Shown here piece by piece: positions 1,000 through 24,522 of a DNA stretch of 26,191 bases. The notes under the pieces are model-generated. The model was not told where the DNA came from. It made no database searches and was given only the letters and a program-made list of their open reading frames with translations. The stretch covers positions 1 to 26,191 of the IMG/VR virus record IMGVR_UViG_3300046004_002409, one strand, 5' to 3'. Source of the DNA: a virus. A program made the translations under genes and the position numbers. Position 1 is the first letter of the stretch, and each line of letters begins with the position of its first letter.

Positions 1000-1353
1000 C
1001 TATTTCTTGTTGCGTTTTTCGTTGGCTGCTTTTAAAAAGCCGCGCTCAATCGCGCTGACTTCGTGAAGTAAATTGAGGCGGTATTTCTTTTTGGCATACA
1101 GCTTAATCACACTGATAACGCTTGCGTAATTAAGCCCCGTAATACCTTCCATGCTGTAATTCCACTGCGTTTGGACGTTAAAAAACACTTCCAAAGCGAG
1201 CTTGGCATCGTAGAAAACAATGAATTCATCTTCATCTTCCTCATCGGGAATTTCAATCGTAACGCCCCACGCTGCCGCGCTATCTTCTAAACTTTGAGAA
1301 TCTTGCGGGCTATCACCTCGAGCGTAGTGATAGCCCGCATCTTCTAGTTTTTT
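1000..1353 (-). CDS. Frameshift extension of tail assembly chaperone (gpT-like, DUF1799-like)
   Basis: This reading frame ends in TAG at 1000-1002 and has no ATG or well-placed start. It runs back without a stop into the last codons of the upstream chaperone gene, in its -1 frame. The product contains EVFFNVQTQWNYSMEGITGL and NYASVISVIKLYAK, the F-x-x-x-TQW-(N9)-GL-Y pattern of DUF1799, a family found after the gpG-like gene in lambdoid-type tails. An acidic stretch (IPDEEDEDEF) precedes it. It is best explained as the C-terminal part of a G-GT type fusion made by -1 ribosomal frameshifting at 1347-1353, giving a fusion of about 237 residues. It would act with the short form as chaperone during tail tube assembly around the tape measure protein. 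A TTG at 1194 could give a 64-residue product, but that would lose half the domain. Confidence 0.8.
   Translation of the reverse strand, partial: KKLEDAGYHYARGDSPQDSQSLEDSAAAWGVTIEIPDEEDEDEFIVFYDAKLALEVFFNVQTQWNYSMEGITGLNYASVISVIKLYAKKKYRLNLLHEVSAIERGFLKAANEKRNKK
1305..1353 (-). other. Programmed -1 ribosomal frameshift signal
   Basis: On the minus strand the zero-frame codons CAA AAA AAC TAG contain the slippery heptamer A-AAA-AAC (1353-1347), immediately before the stop codon of the chaperone gene. Seven bases after the heptamer is a 13-bp perfect hairpin: arm GCGGGCTATCAC (1338-1327, plus A1339) pairs with 1316-1304, with a 10-nt loop (1326-1317). A slippery site, a 5-8 nt spacer and a strong stem is the standard bacterial -1 frameshift layout. 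The -1 frame leads straight into the DUF1799-like frame. All of this is read directly; frameshifting itself is inferred. Confidence 0.88.
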
Positions 1354-15422: not shown

Positions 15423-16679
15423 TCAGTTTAAATTTAATAATCTTTCAACAACCGTCCGAACTTGGTCATTGGTGACATTACAATCGCTGTCGCGCTTAAT
15501 GATATTACGCACTTTAGAAATAACATCATCAGTAAGCAATATTCCGCCAACAATTTCATTGCTTAACGCATTACATTCTCGCCACATTTTTTCAAGTTCA
15601 TTATTTTTATGATTCATGAAAACACGGGAAATCAATGCAAGTTTTTCAGCATCTTGCTGTGAAATTGCTGGACTTAACTTAATTGCAAAAATCAAATCTG
15701 CTTCAACTTTTTCCAGTGTTGATACGCGATAAAGCTGCCATTCCAACAAATTAGTCAATAATGCCCAGCGAATACCCGAATATGCTCCGTAAGATGTCGC
15801 TTGAAAAATTTGTTTATCACGAAGTGCCATTCCTGCTTTTTTCGCCTCAACGACAATAACATCGTTGCCATTTGCTGATAGAACATAGTCCGCACGCCGT
15901 CCTTGAACGTTTTGCTCTGCTTTTACTTCATCGATGTCATAATCTAAAACATCAATAAAAAAACGGTCTAAAATCATGCGCGTATTACTTTCATTTACGG
16001 CTGATTCAACGGCGGCGTTTATTTTTGGCAAAAACTTAATGATTTTTGTATGTAAAACAGCTGCGTATTCAGTTAAAACGACAGAGCGAGTGCGTCTTTT
16101 TCTTTTCAATGTTGTCGTGTTGGCGGCATTATTCACACTATCTATCATCACGCCAAAATGCCGCGCTAAAACGCCTAGCCCATCATTGTAACCTTGACCG
16201 ACAGCTCTAAATTTAAAAACACCTTTATTTCGATACAATTCGCCCATGATGACCGATGATTCATTGCAAATGTCGCTTAATTGATAACGAATACACTCGT
16301 TATCATTATCGCAAATTCGAATTATCACCTGGTCAAGTTTATTAAAATTCACAGGGCTTTCGTTTTGTTCTGCTGACAACGCAAAAACAATGCGTTGAAC
16401 TCCATCAGGTATTTTCAATGTATTTACTGAAAAAACGCAATTATCTAACTTACTGTTGGATTCTGAATTTAGCTGAACTGCCCCACATTGACTTTGAGGC
16501 TGATTATAAAAAATAAAACCTGAATCATTAACAACCTTCCCCAGCTCATCAATTAAAAATGCGCTAGCATCAATGTCGATTTGATTATCTTCTGAACGCC
16601 AACCAATACCGATATTAAATGAATTGCCACTTACTCCAGCGTCAGAAATTGAAGCATTACCGCCTTTTACAAGCTCCAT
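15423..16679 (-). CDS. TerD domain fused to a PD-(D/E)XK nuclease domain
   Basis: The 418-residue protein has a TerD domain (about 1-180): MELVKGGNASISDAG, NQIDIDASAFLIDELGKV, SGFIFYNQPQSQCGAV and the closing FKFRAVGQGYNDGL, with acidic residues of the Ca-binding sites retained. A basic linker (KRKRRTRS, 192-199) leads to a nuclease-like domain (about 225-325) resembling the N-terminal domain of type I restriction HsdR subunits: RRADYVL with D264, VIVVEAKKAG with E278 and K280, and Q293-x3-Y297 as in RecB-like nucleases. A helical tail follows. GGGTGA overlaps the stop of the upstream TerD gene, so the two are co-translated. The domains are read from motifs; a DNA-cleaving role in stress or phage defence is inferred. 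Confidence 0.85.
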   Translation of the reverse strand: MELVKGGNASISDAGVSGNSFNIGIGWRSEDNQIDIDASAFLIDELGKVVNDSGFIFYNQPQSQCGAVQLNSESNSKLDNCVFSVNTLKIPDGVQRIVFALSAEQNESPVNFNKLDQVIIRICDNDNECIRYQLSDICNESSVIMGELYRNKGVFKFRAVGQGYNDGLGVLARHFGVMIDSVNNAANTTTLKRKRRTRSVVLTEYAAVLHTKIIKFLPKINAAVESAVNESNTRMILDRFFIDVLDYDIDEVKAEQNVQGRRADYVLSANGNDVIVVEAKKAGMALRDKQIFQATSYGAYSGIRWALLTNLLEWQLYRVSTLEKVEADLIFAIKLSPAISQQDAEKLALISRVFMNHKNNELEKMWRECNALSNEIVGGILLTDDVISKVRNIIKRDSDCNVTNDQVRTVVERLLNLN

Positions 16680-16682
16680 ACA

Positions 16683-17261
16683 TCACCCAACATTTATGCC
16701 GTAATTACCTGCCAATGCAGCTAATCCACCAGCATAACCTTGACCAACCGCTTTAAATTTCCATTCATCGTTATGGCGATATACTTCGCCAAAAATCATA
16801 GCCGTTTCCGTTGAGGCATCTTCGCTTAAATCGTAACGTGTTACTTCAACGCCAGTGTCTTGATTTACAATGCGAATAGACGCATTTGAAACTTGCCCAA
16901 AATTTTGTTTTCTTATATCTGCTTCATGAATAGTAACTGTAAATGCAATACGCTGAACATTAGACGGAATCCAATCCAATTTTAAAATCAATGTTTCGTC
17001 ATCACCATCGCCGTCACCTGTTAAATTATCACCCGTATGTTCAATTGAGCCGCATGATGATTTGAGTTGATTATAAAAAATGAAATCTTTTTCAGAGCGG
17101 ACTTTTCCATTTTCTGCCAGCATGAATGCGCTGGCATCTAAATCAAAATCCTTACCATCGGTAGGTCGAGCGTCCCAACCTAAGCCAATGATGACGTTTT
17201 TTAAAGTTGGGTCTGTTTTTGAAAGGCTGATATTGCCGCCTTTTGAAAGTGAAACTGCCAT
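16683..17261 (-). CDS. terD: TerD-family protein (tellurite resistance / stress)
   Basis: From ATG 17261 (GAGG 7 nt upstream) the product is a 192-residue TerD protein: [58 protein letters not shown] and [20 protein letters not shown], ending [20 protein letters not shown]. It matches the full family length and keeps the paired acidic Ca-binding loops. TerD proteins belong to the Ter stress system, linked to tellurite tolerance, phage resistance and membrane-associated complexes. Here it stands without TerB, TerC or TerZ, paired only with a TerD-nuclease fusion 3 nt downstream. The longer frame from 17297 would include the ribosome-site hairpin and is rejected. Confidence 0.93.
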
Positions 17262-17265
17262 TTTA

Positions 17266-17294
17266 CGCCTCATTGTTTTGATTATTTTGAGGCG
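17266..17294 (-). promoter_or_regulatory. Hairpin enclosing the terD ribosome-binding site
   Basis: On the minus strand CGCCTCA (17294-17288) is perfectly complementary to TGAGGCG (17272-17266), with a 15-nt AT-rich loop. The second arm contains the whole Shine-Dalgarno GAGG of terD, 4 nt before the ATG. When folded it would hide the ribosome site. Confidence 0.55.
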
Positions 17295-17326
17295 CAAATA
17301 TCGCGCATATTTGTTTGGCTTGTCAA
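17295..17326 (-). promoter_or_regulatory. Promoter and operator-like palindrome of the terD operon
   Basis: On the minus strand a perfect -35 TTGACA (17326-17321) is followed after 18 bp by GATATT (17302-17297). A perfect inverted repeat CAAATAT-N5-ATATTTG (17295-17313) covers the -10 and part of the spacer. A repressor binding there would block the polymerase. The gene pair therefore seems to be separately controlled from the cyclase gene upstream. Confidence 0.6.
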
Positions 17327-17352: not shown

Positions 17353-19143
17353 TTAGGTTTTATCTAAATTATCAGTTACCAAAACCACCTTATTGCGCCC
17401 CGTATTTTTTGCATCGTAAAGCCCTCTATCTGCTCGTTCAATCAATTCAATAACAGAATCATCACTGCAATACTGGGTTACACCAACGCTGATAGTTTTG
17501 TGATTCACAACAGGAAATTTGGCAGATTCAACGGTTGTCCTAATTTTTTCAGCGAGTTCAAAAGCCTGTTGAGAATTTGTTTGAGGCAAAATGATTAAGA
17601 ATTCTTCACCACCCCAACGTCCAAGAATGTCTGAATTGCGAACATTTTCTTTTAAAATTTGCGCCATAAAAATCAATACGGCATCGCCTGTATTATGACC
17701 ATGAGCGTCATTGACTTGTTTAAAATGGTCAATATCGATTAACACTACTGAAAAATCAGATTGGTAACGACTGGCATAATTGATTTCGTGATTGAGTACA
17801 CTGTCTAATTTCACCCGATTATAAATCTGCGTTAATTTATCGGTAATTGAAAGCAGTTCTAATTCAGAATTCACTTGTTCCAATTCAGATGTGACAACGT
17901 TAATAAAGTGCATCAAATGGGAAATGACACGAATGTGTTTATTCACATAAGGGTCATCGACTTGTGAAATTTGAACATCCGCCCATTGTTTTTTAGGATA
18001 AGTGGTTCTTCTAGCGTGTTGACCCTCACGCATTCCAACGGCAACCATCGCAGAATTGAGTAAATGTAAATTATTACTTTGTCCAAAGAATTCACCGTAA
18101 GTATAGAATCCAACCGTTGGCGCAATTTCTTGGAATGGCAATGTTTCTAATTCAACTTCTTCTTGCATTAAAAAACGACGGCATCCACAGGTATAAAGAA
18201 AAACAGCATCAGGCATGAAAGCACGCATAATGGCTTGAATTTCTTTTGCATCGTGAATAATAGTCGTGGGATTTCCATAACCGACCTTGAATTTTTCCCC
18301 AGTGCGAACATCTGCAACAAATTGAAGTGAGCCATCTTCTTCAACAGAAATGGGAACACGCGCTAAGGTTTCGCCATCACGTTCAACTAAAAATGGAAAT
18401 GCTAGAACATCAAGGTCAAAATTCACATCATTACTGATATTTAGATAGCGATGATAAACATTAAAAGCAGGTTCACCATCCACGGTTTTAACAAATTTTC
18501 CATTTGCTTCCGTAATGGTCATTTCCTTACTTAATGGAAGCCATCCAAGATAACTGTAAATATCAATATGTAATTCATTTCCTAAGAACACAACAGCGAC
18601 AGCACCTTTATTTAATAATTGTGTTCCAAGTAAAATCAATGAATTGTGCATTGCGCCATAATCCGCCGCACCACCGCCAAATACAGGATAATTTCCAATT
18701 CTTTTTGCCAGACCATTTAACAAATCTGTTACGTTAATGCTAATTGGGGTTGCTAAGAGTAATACGCCAGCAATATCAGAACCTGACGCGCTAATTGCTT
18801 CGCCTAATGTATTTCCAACAATTTCTTCATCATCTTCATGACATTCTGCAAGCAGGGGAACGAGCGTTGTAAATTCAAAAAAAGAAAATGAAATCACCGT
18901 TGATTTTACAAATGTGCGCCCATCAATAATTTCACCGACCGTTGTTGAACCCACTAAAACAGCGGTTGGCAAATTATCAGTGATAATTTCTGAAATACAT
19001 TTAATCCATGCGGGGACGGTTTGTGCAGAAAATATCTGCACTAAAATTGATTTTGCTTTGGCAACTTCTGTAATGATTTCTTTTGATGCTAAAAATTCAG
19101 TTAATCCACTAGGATTTTCAACAAGGTAAGTATAGTGTTTCAT
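17353..19143 (-). CDS. FIST sensor diguanylate cyclase (FIST_N-FIST_C-GGDEF)
   Basis: The 596-residue protein has a FIST_N domain (about 30-215: [37 protein letters not shown]), a FIST_C domain (about 220-375: [28 protein letters not shown]), a coiled-coil helix (about 405-430) and a GGDEF domain (about 430-590) with [35 protein letters not shown] and the active GGEEF at 511-515. R502-N-S-D505, five residues before it, is the inhibitory I-site. It should make cyclic di-GMP on sensing a small ligand, perhaps an amino acid. It is cytoplasmic, with no membrane segments. It has no obvious Shine-Dalgarno. Its presence among phage genes is odd; it ends 27 bp before the terD promoter. Confidence 0.93.
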
Positions 19144-19805: not shown

Positions 19806-20693
19806 TTACCACTCTAATTTTTTTAGTATTCTGCTAGATATTTCTATACCACTCGAATAGTTCTCGCTGTAATCACCAGCAGGTATATAAACTAGCCCCA
19901 CAACAGGTCTTTTTTTCGTTAATTGAAACAACGTTACCGCAGAAGGCTTAGGTCCAAGAGAAGCAGCTATTATGTTGTAATTATCATCAAGACTATCAAT
20001 TTCTTTGCATAATTTATCGACAGAATTTTTGCTAATATCGTAAGCATCGAAATCAATAAACGAAATAGAATCATCATCAATTACATCAAAAAAATTACGA
20101 ATTTCGTTACTGAATTGTGTACCAACTTGCCTACCTATTATCATTTTTTTTGGCTCATACCTCTGTTTCAATTGTAAAAGTCTTTCATGATCGTAACCAG
20201 AAATCACTAATATACAAGTTGGTAAATCTGGATAAACGATCCCAGAACTTTTTATAACTAATCTGGGCGATTCCGCATCACGACTAAGATAATCATCCGT
20301 GTAACTTTCTGGTTTGAAATAACTAAATTCAGAATTTATAAGCCTACATGATAAATAATGCAGTATGTACCATACCAATTCCCTCGGTGTAGTTGATGCG
20401 TTCAGTCTTACTCTATCAGTGTTATCATTGCTCACGCAATCATCTAAAAACTCCATTGTCTTGTTATATGAGGAGACTTGGTCAAGGTAATTAACTTCAT
20501 ATTCCAAAAAAATTATTCCAAGATCTTCGGATCTTGTTCGAATTCTATCTCTAACAGATAACGTTCTTTCGGCATACCTTTCTGAAAAAGGTACTATCAA
20601 CATTGATGGTTTGAAATCATCAATGTCAAAATATACACCATCTTCAAAACGATCTTCCCAGCTTGCTGGAGCTATTAGAATATTTTTACTCAT
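19806..20693 (-). CDS. Unrecognised Rossmann-like protein, last gene of candidate defence operon
   Basis: The start at ATG 20693 overlaps the ATPase stop (ATGAGTAA). The 295-residue product begins MSKNILIAPASWEDRF, a hydrophobic strand followed by S-W-E-D-R (11-15). It alternates strands and helices (MLIVPFSERYAERTL, IIFLEYEVNYLD). Two glycine/proline turns after strands stand out: RVRLNASTTPRELVWYILHY (STTPR at 100-104) and NIIAASLGPKPSAVTLFQL (SLGPKPS at 245-251), followed by RPVVGLVYIPAGDY. They resemble ligand-binding loops of CARF-like or other Rossmann sensor domains, but I cannot assign a family. It has no catalytic motif I recognise, no membrane segment and no signal. It most likely senses or binds a nucleotide for its operon partners; that is inference. 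Confidence 0.8.
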   Translation of the reverse strand: MSKNILIAPASWEDRFEDGVYFDIDDFKPSMLIVPFSERYAERTLSVRDRIRTRSEDLGIIFLEYEVNYLDQVSSYNKTMEFLDDCVSNDNTDRVRLNASTTPRELVWYILHYLSCRLINSEFSYFKPESYTDDYLSRDAESPRLVIKSSGIVYPDLPTCILVISGYDHERLLQLKQRYEPKKMIIGRQVGTQFSNEIRNFFDVIDDDSISFIDFDAYDISKNSVDKLCKEIDSLDDNYNIIAASLGPKPSAVTLFQLTKKRPVVGLVYIPAGDYSENYSSGIEISSRILKKLEW

Positions 20694-22407
20694 CAAAAAT
20701 CTCTACTTGTTTTTTTTCATCACTTTTATCAAAATTTGTCGGTATTGATACTCCATTTTTTGCGGCATTTAATAAATCAATAGCTTTTAAAGATGCACGT
20801 CCATTTTGTCCTTGTACATCCAGCCCATATGCGGGAAGTAACATTCTGTTTAAAGTATAAAAATCCTCTCGTCCTCCACCAGATTTTGCAGGTCCACTTC
20901 GAATGTAAATTAATTGTGCTTTTCGAGCGACTCTGAACAACCCATCTAATTCTTTCTGATAGAATTCGTCGTACCCTGAAATTGAAAAACTAAGAACTCT
21001 TGGCTCTGATTTATGTTTATGCAATCTATCTCGAAAATGTTCGACTAATTTCGTTATAAGATTTTTTACTTTATCCGCTTCAGTTTTTCCACAACCCTCT
21101 ACTTGCATTTCTAATTTATTTTTAACAAAATCCCAAAGTCCAGAACTCAGATCATGAATAACTTCTGATTGTATGGCAGGCGTAACTGATTTTAGCTCTG
21201 AATCATTGTTTGCCTGCAATTGCTCAAACATTGAATAGCATGGGTTGAGCAAATGCCTGACCACACCAGTTGATAAGTGAACAATTGTTTCAAATCCAGA
21301 ATATTGGGGTTTATTTGCTTTTGCTGGTCTATTTTGGAAGTATCTTGCACGGGCGTACTTATACACATAATCCGTAATAGCTTTTTTACTCGCTAGACCT
21401 TTCACTATTGCTTCATCACGAACTATTTCTTCGTATTCATGAATTGCAGCGCGAAATGATTCATTTTCTGGAAAAAAATCATCTGCCGTCACAAATATCC
21501 CAGATTGATTCAGTCTTTTGGTCACAACATCCCTAGCAAATTTTCCGAATTCAGATTCTTTACTTTGATAAGGTTGTTCAAGATCAATCGTAATGTAATC
21601 ATGTCCTTCAAGTATTGTTCCTCCAAAAGATGTTCTCATATCATGGTAGCGGATACCTGCAATTGCTACTTTGAATGAAAAAACAGTATGATCCCTGTAT
21701 GCAAGCCATGAATTTAGCATTTTACATTGATAAGAATTAAGGTCGTGAGCATCATCTATCAAAAGGGAAATGTGCGTATTTTTAAGAAGTTCTGTTTGTT
21801 TTAGTATTGATAGGATAGGAAGCACTAACGTGTAGAATGAACCTGTTTCGATGCTATCTACACTGATACTAATCCCTTTCGCTAGTTGTATTTGATCTTT
21901 TTTTAATTTATCTCTTACCGCACGTTGTAAAAATTTAAATGTAGACAGGTTATTATAAGAACCATTGTCTACTTCAAGTAGATAGGAAAATTCATCATAT
22001 AACAATCTATGATCCATTTCCGAAAATTCATTTGAAATACTGTCTAAATCTTTAGCGATGGCAGCACAAATACTGTACGAGAAAAAATGTTCTGAGATAA
22101 TAGCCTGATCTATCTCTGTAAGTAGTTTATATTCTTGCTTATGAGTCAATGGGGTATTGCATGGAATATAAATACCTATGTGATCGGGTGGAAATTTTTC
22201 ATTTTTGAGTTTCTGACGTAATTTTTGATAACGAATGGAGTTATATATCAAATTCATACTTTTTCCAGAACCTCTTTCACCATTTATTATCACATTACGA
22301 GTAGATTGAATAAATCGTGAAAAATTATGATCCTCTATAAACCATTCAACTAATAATTTAGGATCTAAGTTGGGCGCGGCATCAAATTCAAAAGGATTTT
22401 TTGTCAT
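20686..22407 (-). CDS. AAA (ORC/CDC6-like) ATPase of candidate defence operon
   Basis: The 573-residue protein has a Walker A GERGSGKS (43-50) soon after the N-terminus and a Walker B HISLLIDDAHDL (212-223), with a sensor-like strand SFKVAIAGIR (about 244-253) after it. The order and the DDAHDL box suggest an AAA ATPase of the STAND/ORC-CDC6 class. The C-terminal 250 residues include GVVRHLLNPCYSMFEQLQ, a likely winged-helix or helical region, and AQLIYIRSGPAKSGGGREDF, TLNRMLLPAYGLDV near the end. It follows the HD gene by 13 nt and overlaps the last gene. It is probably the sensor or motor of the system. No nuclease domain is visible within it. Confidence 0.85.
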   Translation of the reverse strand: MTKNPFEFDAAPNLDPKLLVEWFIEDHNFSRFIQSTRNVIINGERGSGKSMNLIYNSIRYQKLRQKLKNEKFPPDHIGIYIPCNTPLTHKQEYKLLTEIDQAIISEHFFSYSICAAIAKDLDSISNEFSEMDHRLLYDEFSYLLEVDNGSYNNLSTFKFLQRAVRDKLKKDQIQLAKGISISVDSIETGSFYTLVLPILSILKQTELLKNTHISLLIDDAHDLNSYQCKMLNSWLAYRDHTVFSFKVAIAGIRYHDMRTSFGGTILEGHDYITIDLEQPYQSKESEFGKFARDVVTKRLNQSGIFVTADDFFPENESFRAAIHEYEEIVRDEAIVKGLASKKAITDYVYKYARARYFQNRPAKANKPQYSGFETIVHLSTGVVRHLLNPCYSMFEQLQANNDSELKSVTPAIQSEVIHDLSSGLWDFVKNKLEMQVEGCGKTEADKVKNLITKLVEHFRDRLHKHKSEPRVLSFSISGYDEFYQKELDGLFRVARKAQLIYIRSGPAKSGGGREDFYTLNRMLLPAYGLDVQGQNGRASLKAIDLLNAAKNGVSIPTNFDKSDEKKQVEIFDE

Positions 22408-22420
22408 TGTCTTTTATTTT

Positions 22421-23449
22421 TCACAATAATTTTTTAATTAGTTGATCAATATTGTAACTGGGATTTATTTGTTCAATTTTTCCAGAAATATTTCCGAGTA
22501 TATTTATGTCGTTTAAAACAATAGGATCTAAAGATAAATCGGTGGGTAAATCATTTTTAAAAAATGTGATACTGATAGATGTGTCTCTAAACAATGCCAA
22601 CTCTTTACAATAGTGTCGAGCGAATAATCTTTCGTGATTCATTTTTTCCGCTCTTGCATAAACTATTTTCAACAGCTGACTTAAATATTTTTTGAGCTTG
22701 GCTTTGTTTTTTGGATAGTCTTTATTTTCCGAATCGATACTATATGACAATGCAACCCTCCCACTAGCTGAATCAATCGATACACGAGTGATTTGGGCGT
22801 ACTGATGATATATTTCACTAGTATCATCAATCAATTTACTACTTATTAAAAAGTTTGATGTACGTTGCGGTCCCTCTGCAAGTTCATCAGCAAATCTCAC
22901 GATAGCGGCAATTGGTGCTAGTCTGACAGCTTCTTTAAAAAAATAGTTATTGCTCACACTGAGTGCTTTCAAGGTGTCATTTGATCCATTATCATCTTTT
23001 CCACAGTGAGCTCTGCCAACACTAAATATGACCTGTCTCTCTGTATTTCCCCATAAATTCCAACACGTTAATTCGGACCATACTTTGTTAATTTTTTCGT
23101 TATGCCTATCACGTCCATAGATATTGCCAATATCATGAAGTAGCAACCCCATCAATAGAATTAGCATTTCATGCGGAGAAAAAGTATGGCAGTCTGACCT
23201 ATAATTATCATCACCAAAATGGTTTTTAAATCCCAATAGAAGGGCAGCATTATCTATGACGTCTCGAATATGAACTACTCCGTGATCCGTCAATCCCTGT
23301 CCTTCTTTTGCTATCCAAGGCAATATTTTTGTGACAATTTCATTTCTAGTAGTTACATAGTCATTCCAAAGTTTATCTCCTTCCTGCCCTAATTTATCAC
23401 TCAATAGCCACTTCACATGCTGTTCAAGGGGTCTTTCTTCCCAGTTCAT
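22421..23449 (-). CDS. HD-domain phosphohydrolase/nuclease of candidate defence operon
   Basis: The 342-residue protein carries an HD metal site: LTDHGVVHIRDVIDNA (H56, H60), LLLHDIGNIYGRDRHN (H105-D106, H116), GRAHCG (H148) and RFADELAEG (D188). This is the H-HD-H-H-D series of HD phosphohydrolases; the DHG-x-x-H opening resembles HD domains found in bacterial conflict systems. The C-terminal half (SLKLIDDTSEIYHQYAQIT region onward) is alpha-beta and unassigned. It could cleave a nucleotide or nucleic acid and so be the effector, or remove a signal nucleotide. It starts 17 nt after the methyltransferase stop and lies 13 nt before the ATPase gene. Confidence 0.88.
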   Translation of the reverse strand: MNWEERPLEQHVKWLLSDKLGQEGDKLWNDYVTTRNEIVTKILPWIAKEGQGLTDHGVVHIRDVIDNAALLLGFKNHFGDDNYRSDCHTFSPHEMLILLMGLLLHDIGNIYGRDRHNEKINKVWSELTCWNLWGNTERQVIFSVGRAHCGKDDNGSNDTLKALSVSNNYFFKEAVRLAPIAAIVRFADELAEGPQRTSNFLISSKLIDDTSEIYHQYAQITRVSIDSASGRVALSYSIDSENKDYPKNKAKLKKYLSQLLKIVYARAEKMNHERLFARHYCKELALFRDTSISITFFKNDLPTDLSLDPIVLNDINILGNISGKIEQINPSYNIDQLIKKLL

Positions 23450-23466
23450 ACTTATTTTCTTTAAAA

Positions 23467-24522
23467 TTAGTTTGTTGACAATATTTGAGTCATAACAGCT
23501 CTCGCTAAAAGTGGAGGTACTGCATTACCTACTTGTTGTTGTTGAAAACCAATAGTGCCGCAAAACTTGAAACTATCGGGAAATGATTGAAGCCGTGCAG
23601 CTTCTCGTACAGACAATCCTCTATCTTTCCACGGATGAATCAACATATTTTTTCTGAAATTTCCGATAACGACAGATGGTTCATCTTCTTTTAATCTTCG
23701 ATAAATTCCAGTGTGACAACGCGATACGTCGGCATAATTTTTCATAAGTTCTTTTGGGATATTTTCCCAATTCCCTCCTTGCGGAATGTGCTTGTATCGT
23801 TCAACAACATGAGGAGCGTTTTTTGTGACAACATTGTTATGGCATTTTTTCATTTTTCTGCGTAACACCTTTGCATAATCTGAGTGAGCTGAACCTGAAT
23901 ATTCTTGTTCATCATTAGAATTACCACATTCAATATCAGGCAAATCCATTAAGGCATCGGCTACAGTGACATATTTTTTAGTTGTAGGCTCAGGTGCTGA
24001 AACCTCATGTCCATCCAATGACCCAATGATAAAAAGTCTATTTCTTTTTTGTGGCACGCCATAATCTGCTGAGTTCAAAATAAAATGGCTTGTGGTGTAG
24101 CCAGCAGATTTAAAACCATTGAGAATTTCATGCAGAAAAAAACCCTTCTCCGTTTCGACTAGACCTTTTACATTTTCAAACACAACCCAATCGGGCTTTA
24201 CTTCATTAACCAAACGCAAATATTCACTGTAAAGCCAGTTGTTTGCATTATCTGCATTTCTATTTTTTTGATTTGAGGTAGAAAATCCCTGACAAGGCGA
24301 ACCACCAAAAATTACAATAGGTTTACTACGATCGAGAGTGGCGAAATCAGAACCACTGACCTTCCTAATATCACAATCAAAAAGTTTAGTCTCTGGATGA
24401 TTTAGAGCAAAAGTTTGAGCTGCAAACTTATCTGCTTCAACGGCATAACATACATCTACACCACAGTCGGCTGCTCCCACAGACATTCCACCAGCCCCAG
24501 AAAATAAATCTATACCCTGCAT
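23467..24522 (-). CDS. DNA cytosine-5 methyltransferase
   Basis: The 351-residue protein has all conserved motifs in order: I DLFSGAGGMS (5-14), IV FGGSPCQGFS with catalytic C77, VI FENVKG (E116), VIII QKRNRLFIIG, a target-recognition region (about 190-280), IX RLQSFPDSF and X QQVGNAVPPLLARA. It makes 5-methylcytosine in a sequence that the recognition region sets and that I cannot read. The ATG fits the family start; no Shine-Dalgarno is seen, so initiation may be weak or leaderless. It is the first gene of a four-gene operon without a restriction enzyme. It may mark self DNA for the ATPase/HD partners. The upstream gap (24523-24621) holds a TAAC-N5-GTTA repeat. Confidence 0.96.
   Translation of the reverse strand: MQGIDLFSGAGGMSVGAADCGVDVCYAVEADKFAAQTFALNHPETKLFDCDIRKVSGSDFATLDRSKPIVIFGGSPCQGFSTSNQKNRNADNANNWLYSEYLRLVNEVKPDWVVFENVKGLVETEKGFFLHEILNGFKSAGYTTSHFILNSADYGVPQKRNRLFIIGSLDGHEVSAPEPTTKKYVTVADALMDLPDIECGNSNDEQEYSGSAHSDYAKVLRRKMKKCHNNVVTKNAPHVVERYKHIPQGGNWENIPKELMKNYADVSRCHTGIYRRLKEDEPSVVIGNFRKNMLIHPWKDRGLSVREAARLQSFPDSFKFCGTIGFQQQQVGNAVPPLLARAVMTQILSTN

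Follow-up and report, generated by a model that had tools for sequence, protein, structure and literature searches.

The window analysed here, a 26,191-nt stretch of viral DNA (positions 1 to 26,191 of IMG/VR record IMGVR_UViG_3300046004_002409), carries on its minus strand a series of tail genes in the order tube, chaperone, DUF1799 and tape measure. The chaperone gene ends in the 0 frame at a TAG that directly follows the heptamer A_AAA_AAC, a perfect hairpin lies just downstream, and the DUF1799 sequence continues in the -1 frame (Table 1). Judged from the sequence, this junction very probably is a -1 programmed ribosomal frameshift signal of the lambda G/GT type, predicted to fuse the tail assembly chaperone to DUF1799.

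Table 1. Features at the chaperone/DUF1799 junction and the flanking tail genes (window coordinates; ORF, open reading frame).
Feature	Position	Strand	Basis
0-frame gene, lambda G-like tail assembly chaperone, 122 aa + stop	1712-1344	minus	phrog_313, profile comparison, position
Slippery heptamer A_AAA_AAC, in frame	1353-1347	minus	sequence; identical in 8/8 distinct relatives
0-frame stop TAG, abutting the heptamer	1346-1344	minus	sequence; stop likewise placed in all close relatives
7-nt spacer TAGAAGA, stop included	1346-1340	minus	sequence
Candidate stimulatory hairpin, 13-bp perfect stem + 10-nt loop	1339-1304	minus	fold, uniqueness, conservation
-1 frame extension, 115 aa (LEDAGYHYARGD...), DUF1799	1347-1000, stop 1002-1000	minus	frames, Pfam
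64-aa TTG ORF, likely miscall of the extension	1194-1000	minus	ORF list
Tail tube gene (Phage_tube_2), upstream	1727-2680	minus	PF18906 E=5e-19
Tape measure gene (TMP_3), downstream, cut by the window end	2-988	minus	PF20155 E=8e-36

Read directly, the minus-strand letters at the junction are ...GCG TTG AAA CAA AAA AAC TAG. An earlier note on this DNA had placed the heptamer right before the stop, followed after 7 nt by the stem and loop, and both statements agree with the sequence to the base. The span that it gave for the feature, 1305-1353, is correct at the heptamer end, while the stem ends at 1304. The stem arms are TGCGGGCTATCAC (1339-1327) and GTGATAGCCCGCA (1316-1304), and the loop occupies 1326-1317. 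The RNA from 1360 to 1285 folds with -31.1 kcal/mol (z = -8.1), and none of 200 dinucleotide shuffles was equally stable. Counting perfect inverted repeats with loops of 3-15 nt and stems of at least 12 bp, this hairpin is the only one in the 26-kb window; no Rfam family matched at its position. Downstream stimulatory structures of this kind are frequent, not universal, in signals of the lambda G/GT type. The heptamer by itself is weak evidence because the window contains 23 copies of AAAAAAC on its two strands; the weight lies in the combination of features and in their conservation.

The -1 frame is open for 115 codons, from the heptamer to position 1000, so that the predicted fusion comprises about 237 aa. 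It matches DUF1799 (PF08809) with 32.9 bits against a curated cut-off of 26 (E = 7.6e-8), in agreement with the DUF1799-like sequence noticed earlier. No ATG, GTG or TTG is present in its first 51 codons, the earliest being codon 52, and the earliest ATG is codon 66 (1152), within the conserved part. The extension thus has no start codon of its own upstream of the conserved part, as had been claimed, and an ORF caller therefore yields a 64-aa protein with a TTG start, the very miscall that had been anticipated. In the close relatives, conservation of the -1 frame protein starts right after the heptamer, with L1, A4, G5 and Y6 invariant. Searched against phage records, the extension (P0002) gave a single, weak match, to Pseudomonas phage PS-1. 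The structure model of the DUF1799 part had a predicted local distance difference test score (pLDDT) of 44 and was not used.

To follow the signal across related sequences, close relatives were collected by protein searches of viral and genome contigs, independently of the heptamer. These were L003, L004/L005, L007, L008, L009, L010/L011, L015 and L016, the last two located in a metagenome-assembled genome (MAG) of an uncultured proteobacterium; L006 stops short of the junction. All eight distinct relatives that reach the junction carry A_AAA_AAC, then TAG, TAA or TGA, then an equally spaced hairpin, and the heptamer lies in frame within the overlap, in the form X_XXY_YYZ. The conservation asked about in the earlier note is thus present, as no close relative lacks the heptamer and the overlap. 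L074 and L081 were added by a pattern scan and are biased, because the scan pattern included the heptamer. Over the 11 rows, these two included, 90% of the cells of a 12-bp stem are paired, compared with 30-57% after a shift of one arm by 1-3 columns. Four stem pairs have changed on both sides in a compensatory manner, for example from G-C to U-A in L015 (columns 24/53) and from U-A to C-G in L008 (columns 30/47). The hairpin fold has z values from -2.9 to -7.6 in eight of the nine unbiased rows, the weakest being that of L016 (z -0.6). As a separate observation, the DUF1799 part of L004 (4366-4760) is lengthened by about 23 residues inserted in the 'KLYAKKK' stretch.

The product of the 0-frame gene (P0001) matches phrog_313, 'Tail assembly chaperone', weakly (E=2e-4). 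Its profile aligns over 99 columns, with a probability of 97.9, with the 0-frame DUF1799 partners of other genomes; most of those tested belong to Phage_TAC_4 or lie near it (6 of 9 with a match). The protein itself stays below the curated cut-off of Phage_TAC_4 (PF08748) and, being related to that family by profile-profile comparison alone, is not filed under PF08748. Phage records gave no match by DNA similarity or by tblastn with P0001. The predicted fold (pLDDT 81) had no match among solved structures, and in BFVD it matched phage proteins only, a few of which are labelled tape measure chaperone, with weak E-values. The gene lies between the major tail protein and tape measure genes, with genes for the Phage_tube_2 tail tube, a tail terminator and a Mu gp36-like protein upstream; by analogy, the chaperone and DUF1799 occupy the place of the G/GT genes.

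To see how general the arrangement is, genome samples drawn from the MAG's order, class and phylum were searched with the DUF1799 Pfam profile, and phage records by tblastn. A match was found in 8 of 101 genomes of the order, 10 of 369 of the class and 30 of 399 of the phylum. Altogether, 71 loci from proteobacterial genomes, cultured phages and the window family were found by protein family or protein search; L026 was excluded as a degenerate match. The first 63 loci comprised 41 with A_AAA_AAC, 20 with G_GGA_AAC, one with A_AAA_AAG (L063) and one without a heptamer (L032), where DUF1799 is present and the upstream chaperone is not recognisable. Eight further phages added five loci with A_AAA_AAC abutting TAA and three without a heptamer. 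A heptamer of the form R_RRA_AAC (A_AAA_AAC or G_GGA_AAC), giving an exact -1 shift into DUF1799, is thus present at 66 of the 71 loci. As a rough guide to the chance level, the overlaps contain just four further in-frame heptamers, whatever their type. The 71 loci are related and not independent, with near-copy pairs such as L051/L052 and L084/L092 among them. The heptamer adjoins the 0-frame stop at 52 of 62 loci in the first set and at 57 of 67 with the eight phages included; at ten loci, 1-35 sense codons precede the stop. Two variants stand apart. L063 is the sole DUF1799 locus with A_AAA_AAG, the heptamer favoured in E. coli, placed 18 nt before the stop, and phages e4/1c, Sushi and Kp3 (L097, L099 and L101) keep the DUF1799 arrangement but have only a tetramer, A_AAG or A_AAA, one codon ahead of the stop.

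The frames, the missing start, the conserved heptamer, the covarying stem and the family-wide arrangement together support the earlier proposal of a -1 frameshift in the tail chaperone gene. Some results weigh against it. The 0-frame protein had no Pfam match at E ≤ 1. In the shuffle control for covariation, 7-15 of 500 shuffles matched the observed values, and the excess is only moderate because the stem also has a coding role and the alignment consists of few, related rows. The hairpin signal weakens outside the window family (mean z -1.15, compared with -0.22 for control stretches). Finally, A_AAA_AAC belongs to the low-efficiency class in E. coli (PMC4066793), and its rate in the host is uncertain. 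In the efficient bacterial -1 heptamers, the A-site codon, AAG or AAA, re-pairs cognately (PMC4066793); the A-site codon here is AAC. The word 'textbook', used for the signal in the earlier note, is therefore apt for eukaryotic ribosomes and not for those of E. coli.

We infer that slippage occurs here at a low rate. Most ribosomes would end at the TAG and release the 122-aa chaperone. In a minority, the hairpin 7 nt downstream would cause a pause while tRNA-Lys and tRNA-Asn occupy AAA-AAC; the two tRNAs would slip back in tandem by one base, and 115 more codons would be translated into the fusion with its C-terminal DUF1799. As in lambda, the tape measure protein may be coated by abundant short chaperones and rare fusions, which may also recruit the tail tube protein. 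Frameshifting on U_UUA_AAC was about 2% with queuosine in tRNA-Asn and 1% without (PMC6787027). In lambda, about 30 gpG are required per gpGT (PMC5009743), and two genes of an HK97-like chaperone cluster shift at 6-7% (PMC3711429). A weak heptamer would therefore fit the task.

The position of the stop raises the question of whether the slip is coupled to slow termination. In that case the ribosome would slip once translocation had brought tRNA-Asn into the P site and the stop codon into the A site, and competition with the release factor would set the ratio. The nucleotides of the junction give this some substance. At 58 loci the -1 frame residue after the heptamer is Leu, and 52 of these have the 0-frame stop there, compared with 11.3 expected from per-locus codon use; the rare Leu codon CTA is used 23 times, compared with 2.7 expected. 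The Leu codon is CTN in 58 of 58 cases, never TTA or TTG, although CTN makes up only 30-50% of the Leu codons in the AT-rich window family. Even where the -1 residue is not Leu (Pro in L014, Arg in L037 and L071), AAC keeps its C. Therefore, AAC and the adjacent stop appear, by codon use, to be held beyond the amino-acid constraint. The stop also adjoins the heptamer at most heptamer loci, and the three phages without a heptamer keep it one codon after their tetramers. On the other hand, there are the ten loci with sense codons ahead of the stop, adjacency may merely minimise the 0-frame tail, and the expectation assumes an independence that fails for related loci. We regard coupling to termination as unlikely, but as the strongest of the alternatives. 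The broader idea is that nearly all DUF1799 chaperones of proteobacterial phages use a stop-coupled form of -1 frameshifting, in which R_RRA_AAC and the abutting stop are co-selected and weak A-site re-pairing and the release factor fix a low ratio of fusion. It is likewise tentative, and we would sooner doubt it than accept it.

Mixed mRNAs could also arise by transcriptional slippage on the A run, with no shift by the ribosome. The window does have seven A in a row; most close relatives, however, have only six, and a hairpin at a fixed distance is a feature of ribosomal frameshifting. This explanation is rejected as very improbable because homologues at 20 family loci use G_GGA_AAC, which offers the polymerase no long homopolymer. 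It is just as hard to believe that DUF1799 is translated separately, whether by coupling to the stop or by internal initiation at TTG 1194 or ATG 1152: the conserved -1 peptide begins at the heptamer, both of these codons lie inside it or beyond it, and the -1 frame has no ATG, GTG or TTG in its first 51 codons. There is next to no probability that the -1 frame is a decayed gene and that the hairpin terminates transcription or is a palindrome by chance. A strong inverted repeat does stand right behind the stop codon, but no T run was found after it, and the tape measure gene comes downstream. Relatives, moreover, keep the hairpin with compensatory changes, and protein conservation acts on the -1 frame.

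With ribosomal frameshifting as the preferred explanation, a tail gene that ordinary gene calling truncates would be restored, in the window and widely. Among 20 cultured-phage records inspected, the join is annotated in three, DUF1799 is given as a separate gene in 13 and it is left out in four. PMC9658991 also lists DUF1799 as a separate gene. DUF1799 proteins carry the label 'tail length tape measure protein' in PHROGs phrog_680 and phrog_17368 and in many phage records (among L085-L101). This looks like a transferred misannotation, the tape measure being the next gene.

Elsewhere on the minus strand, the window contains a cluster (19806-24522) encoding a C5 cytosine methyltransferase, an HD-CE protein, an ORC-CDC6-like ATPase and a CARF-like protein (PADLOC CARF6, E=6e-21); it resembles an island for defence or regulation by nucleotide signalling within the phage. 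Two adjacent TerD-domain genes lie at 15423-17297; that at 15423-16679 carries a fused type I restriction HsdR N-terminal-like domain. A protein with a FIST sensor and a GGDEF (diguanylate cyclase) domain is encoded at 17353-19143 of this phage contig.

Like lambda G/GT, the junction lies between the major tail protein and tape measure genes, has a -1 heptamer close to the end of the 0-frame gene and would yield a short product and a rarer -1 fusion. The heptamer of lambda is G_GGA_AAG, and the window differs in its A_AAA_AAC, the stop abutting it, the DUF1799 extension and the strong hairpin. The conserved tail-gene frameshift was described by Xu, Hendrix and Duda in 2004, according to the summaries in passages of PMC5009743 and PMC2628397. 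Acinetobacter phage vB_AbaS_Loki has AAAAAAC immediately before the stop and a predicted -1 fusion at gp12/gp13; in this other phage the fusion is a prediction only, and the passage on it in PMC5313236 does not mention a hairpin. In Burkholderia phage KL1, gp18/gp19 has GGGAAAC right before TGA, and the 35 bases that follow may contain a stem-loop (PMC3483164); it differs in the G variant of the heptamer and in an extra tail gene ahead of the tape measure gene. The T1-like phages (Drexlerviridae), such as Shfl1 and Sushi, have in their tape measure chaperones TfmS/TfmA/TfmB a DUF1799-type extension in the -1 frame, with A_AAA_AAC abutting TAA in Shfl1, ityhuna, aalborv, PHB17 and K50evo21. Their proteins are only weakly similar to those of the window, and Sushi, whose record has the joined gene annotated, e4/1c and Kp3 lack the heptamer. 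The g-t frameshift of the haloarchaeal virus HCTV-2 (PMC5009743) also uses A_AAA_AAC in a tail chaperone gene; its host is an archaeon, and it is likened by heptamer and gene and not by protein homology. We found no paper stating for DUF1799 as a whole that the stop directly follows a heptamer ranked inefficient in E. coli, and Xu et al. (2004) may list some cases. Frameshifted tail chaperones have long been known, and the window adds one more member of that kind. The DUF1799 loci, with their low-efficiency heptamers against the stop even in E. coli phages, offer a natural set in which to study how phages fix a low fusion-to-short ratio.
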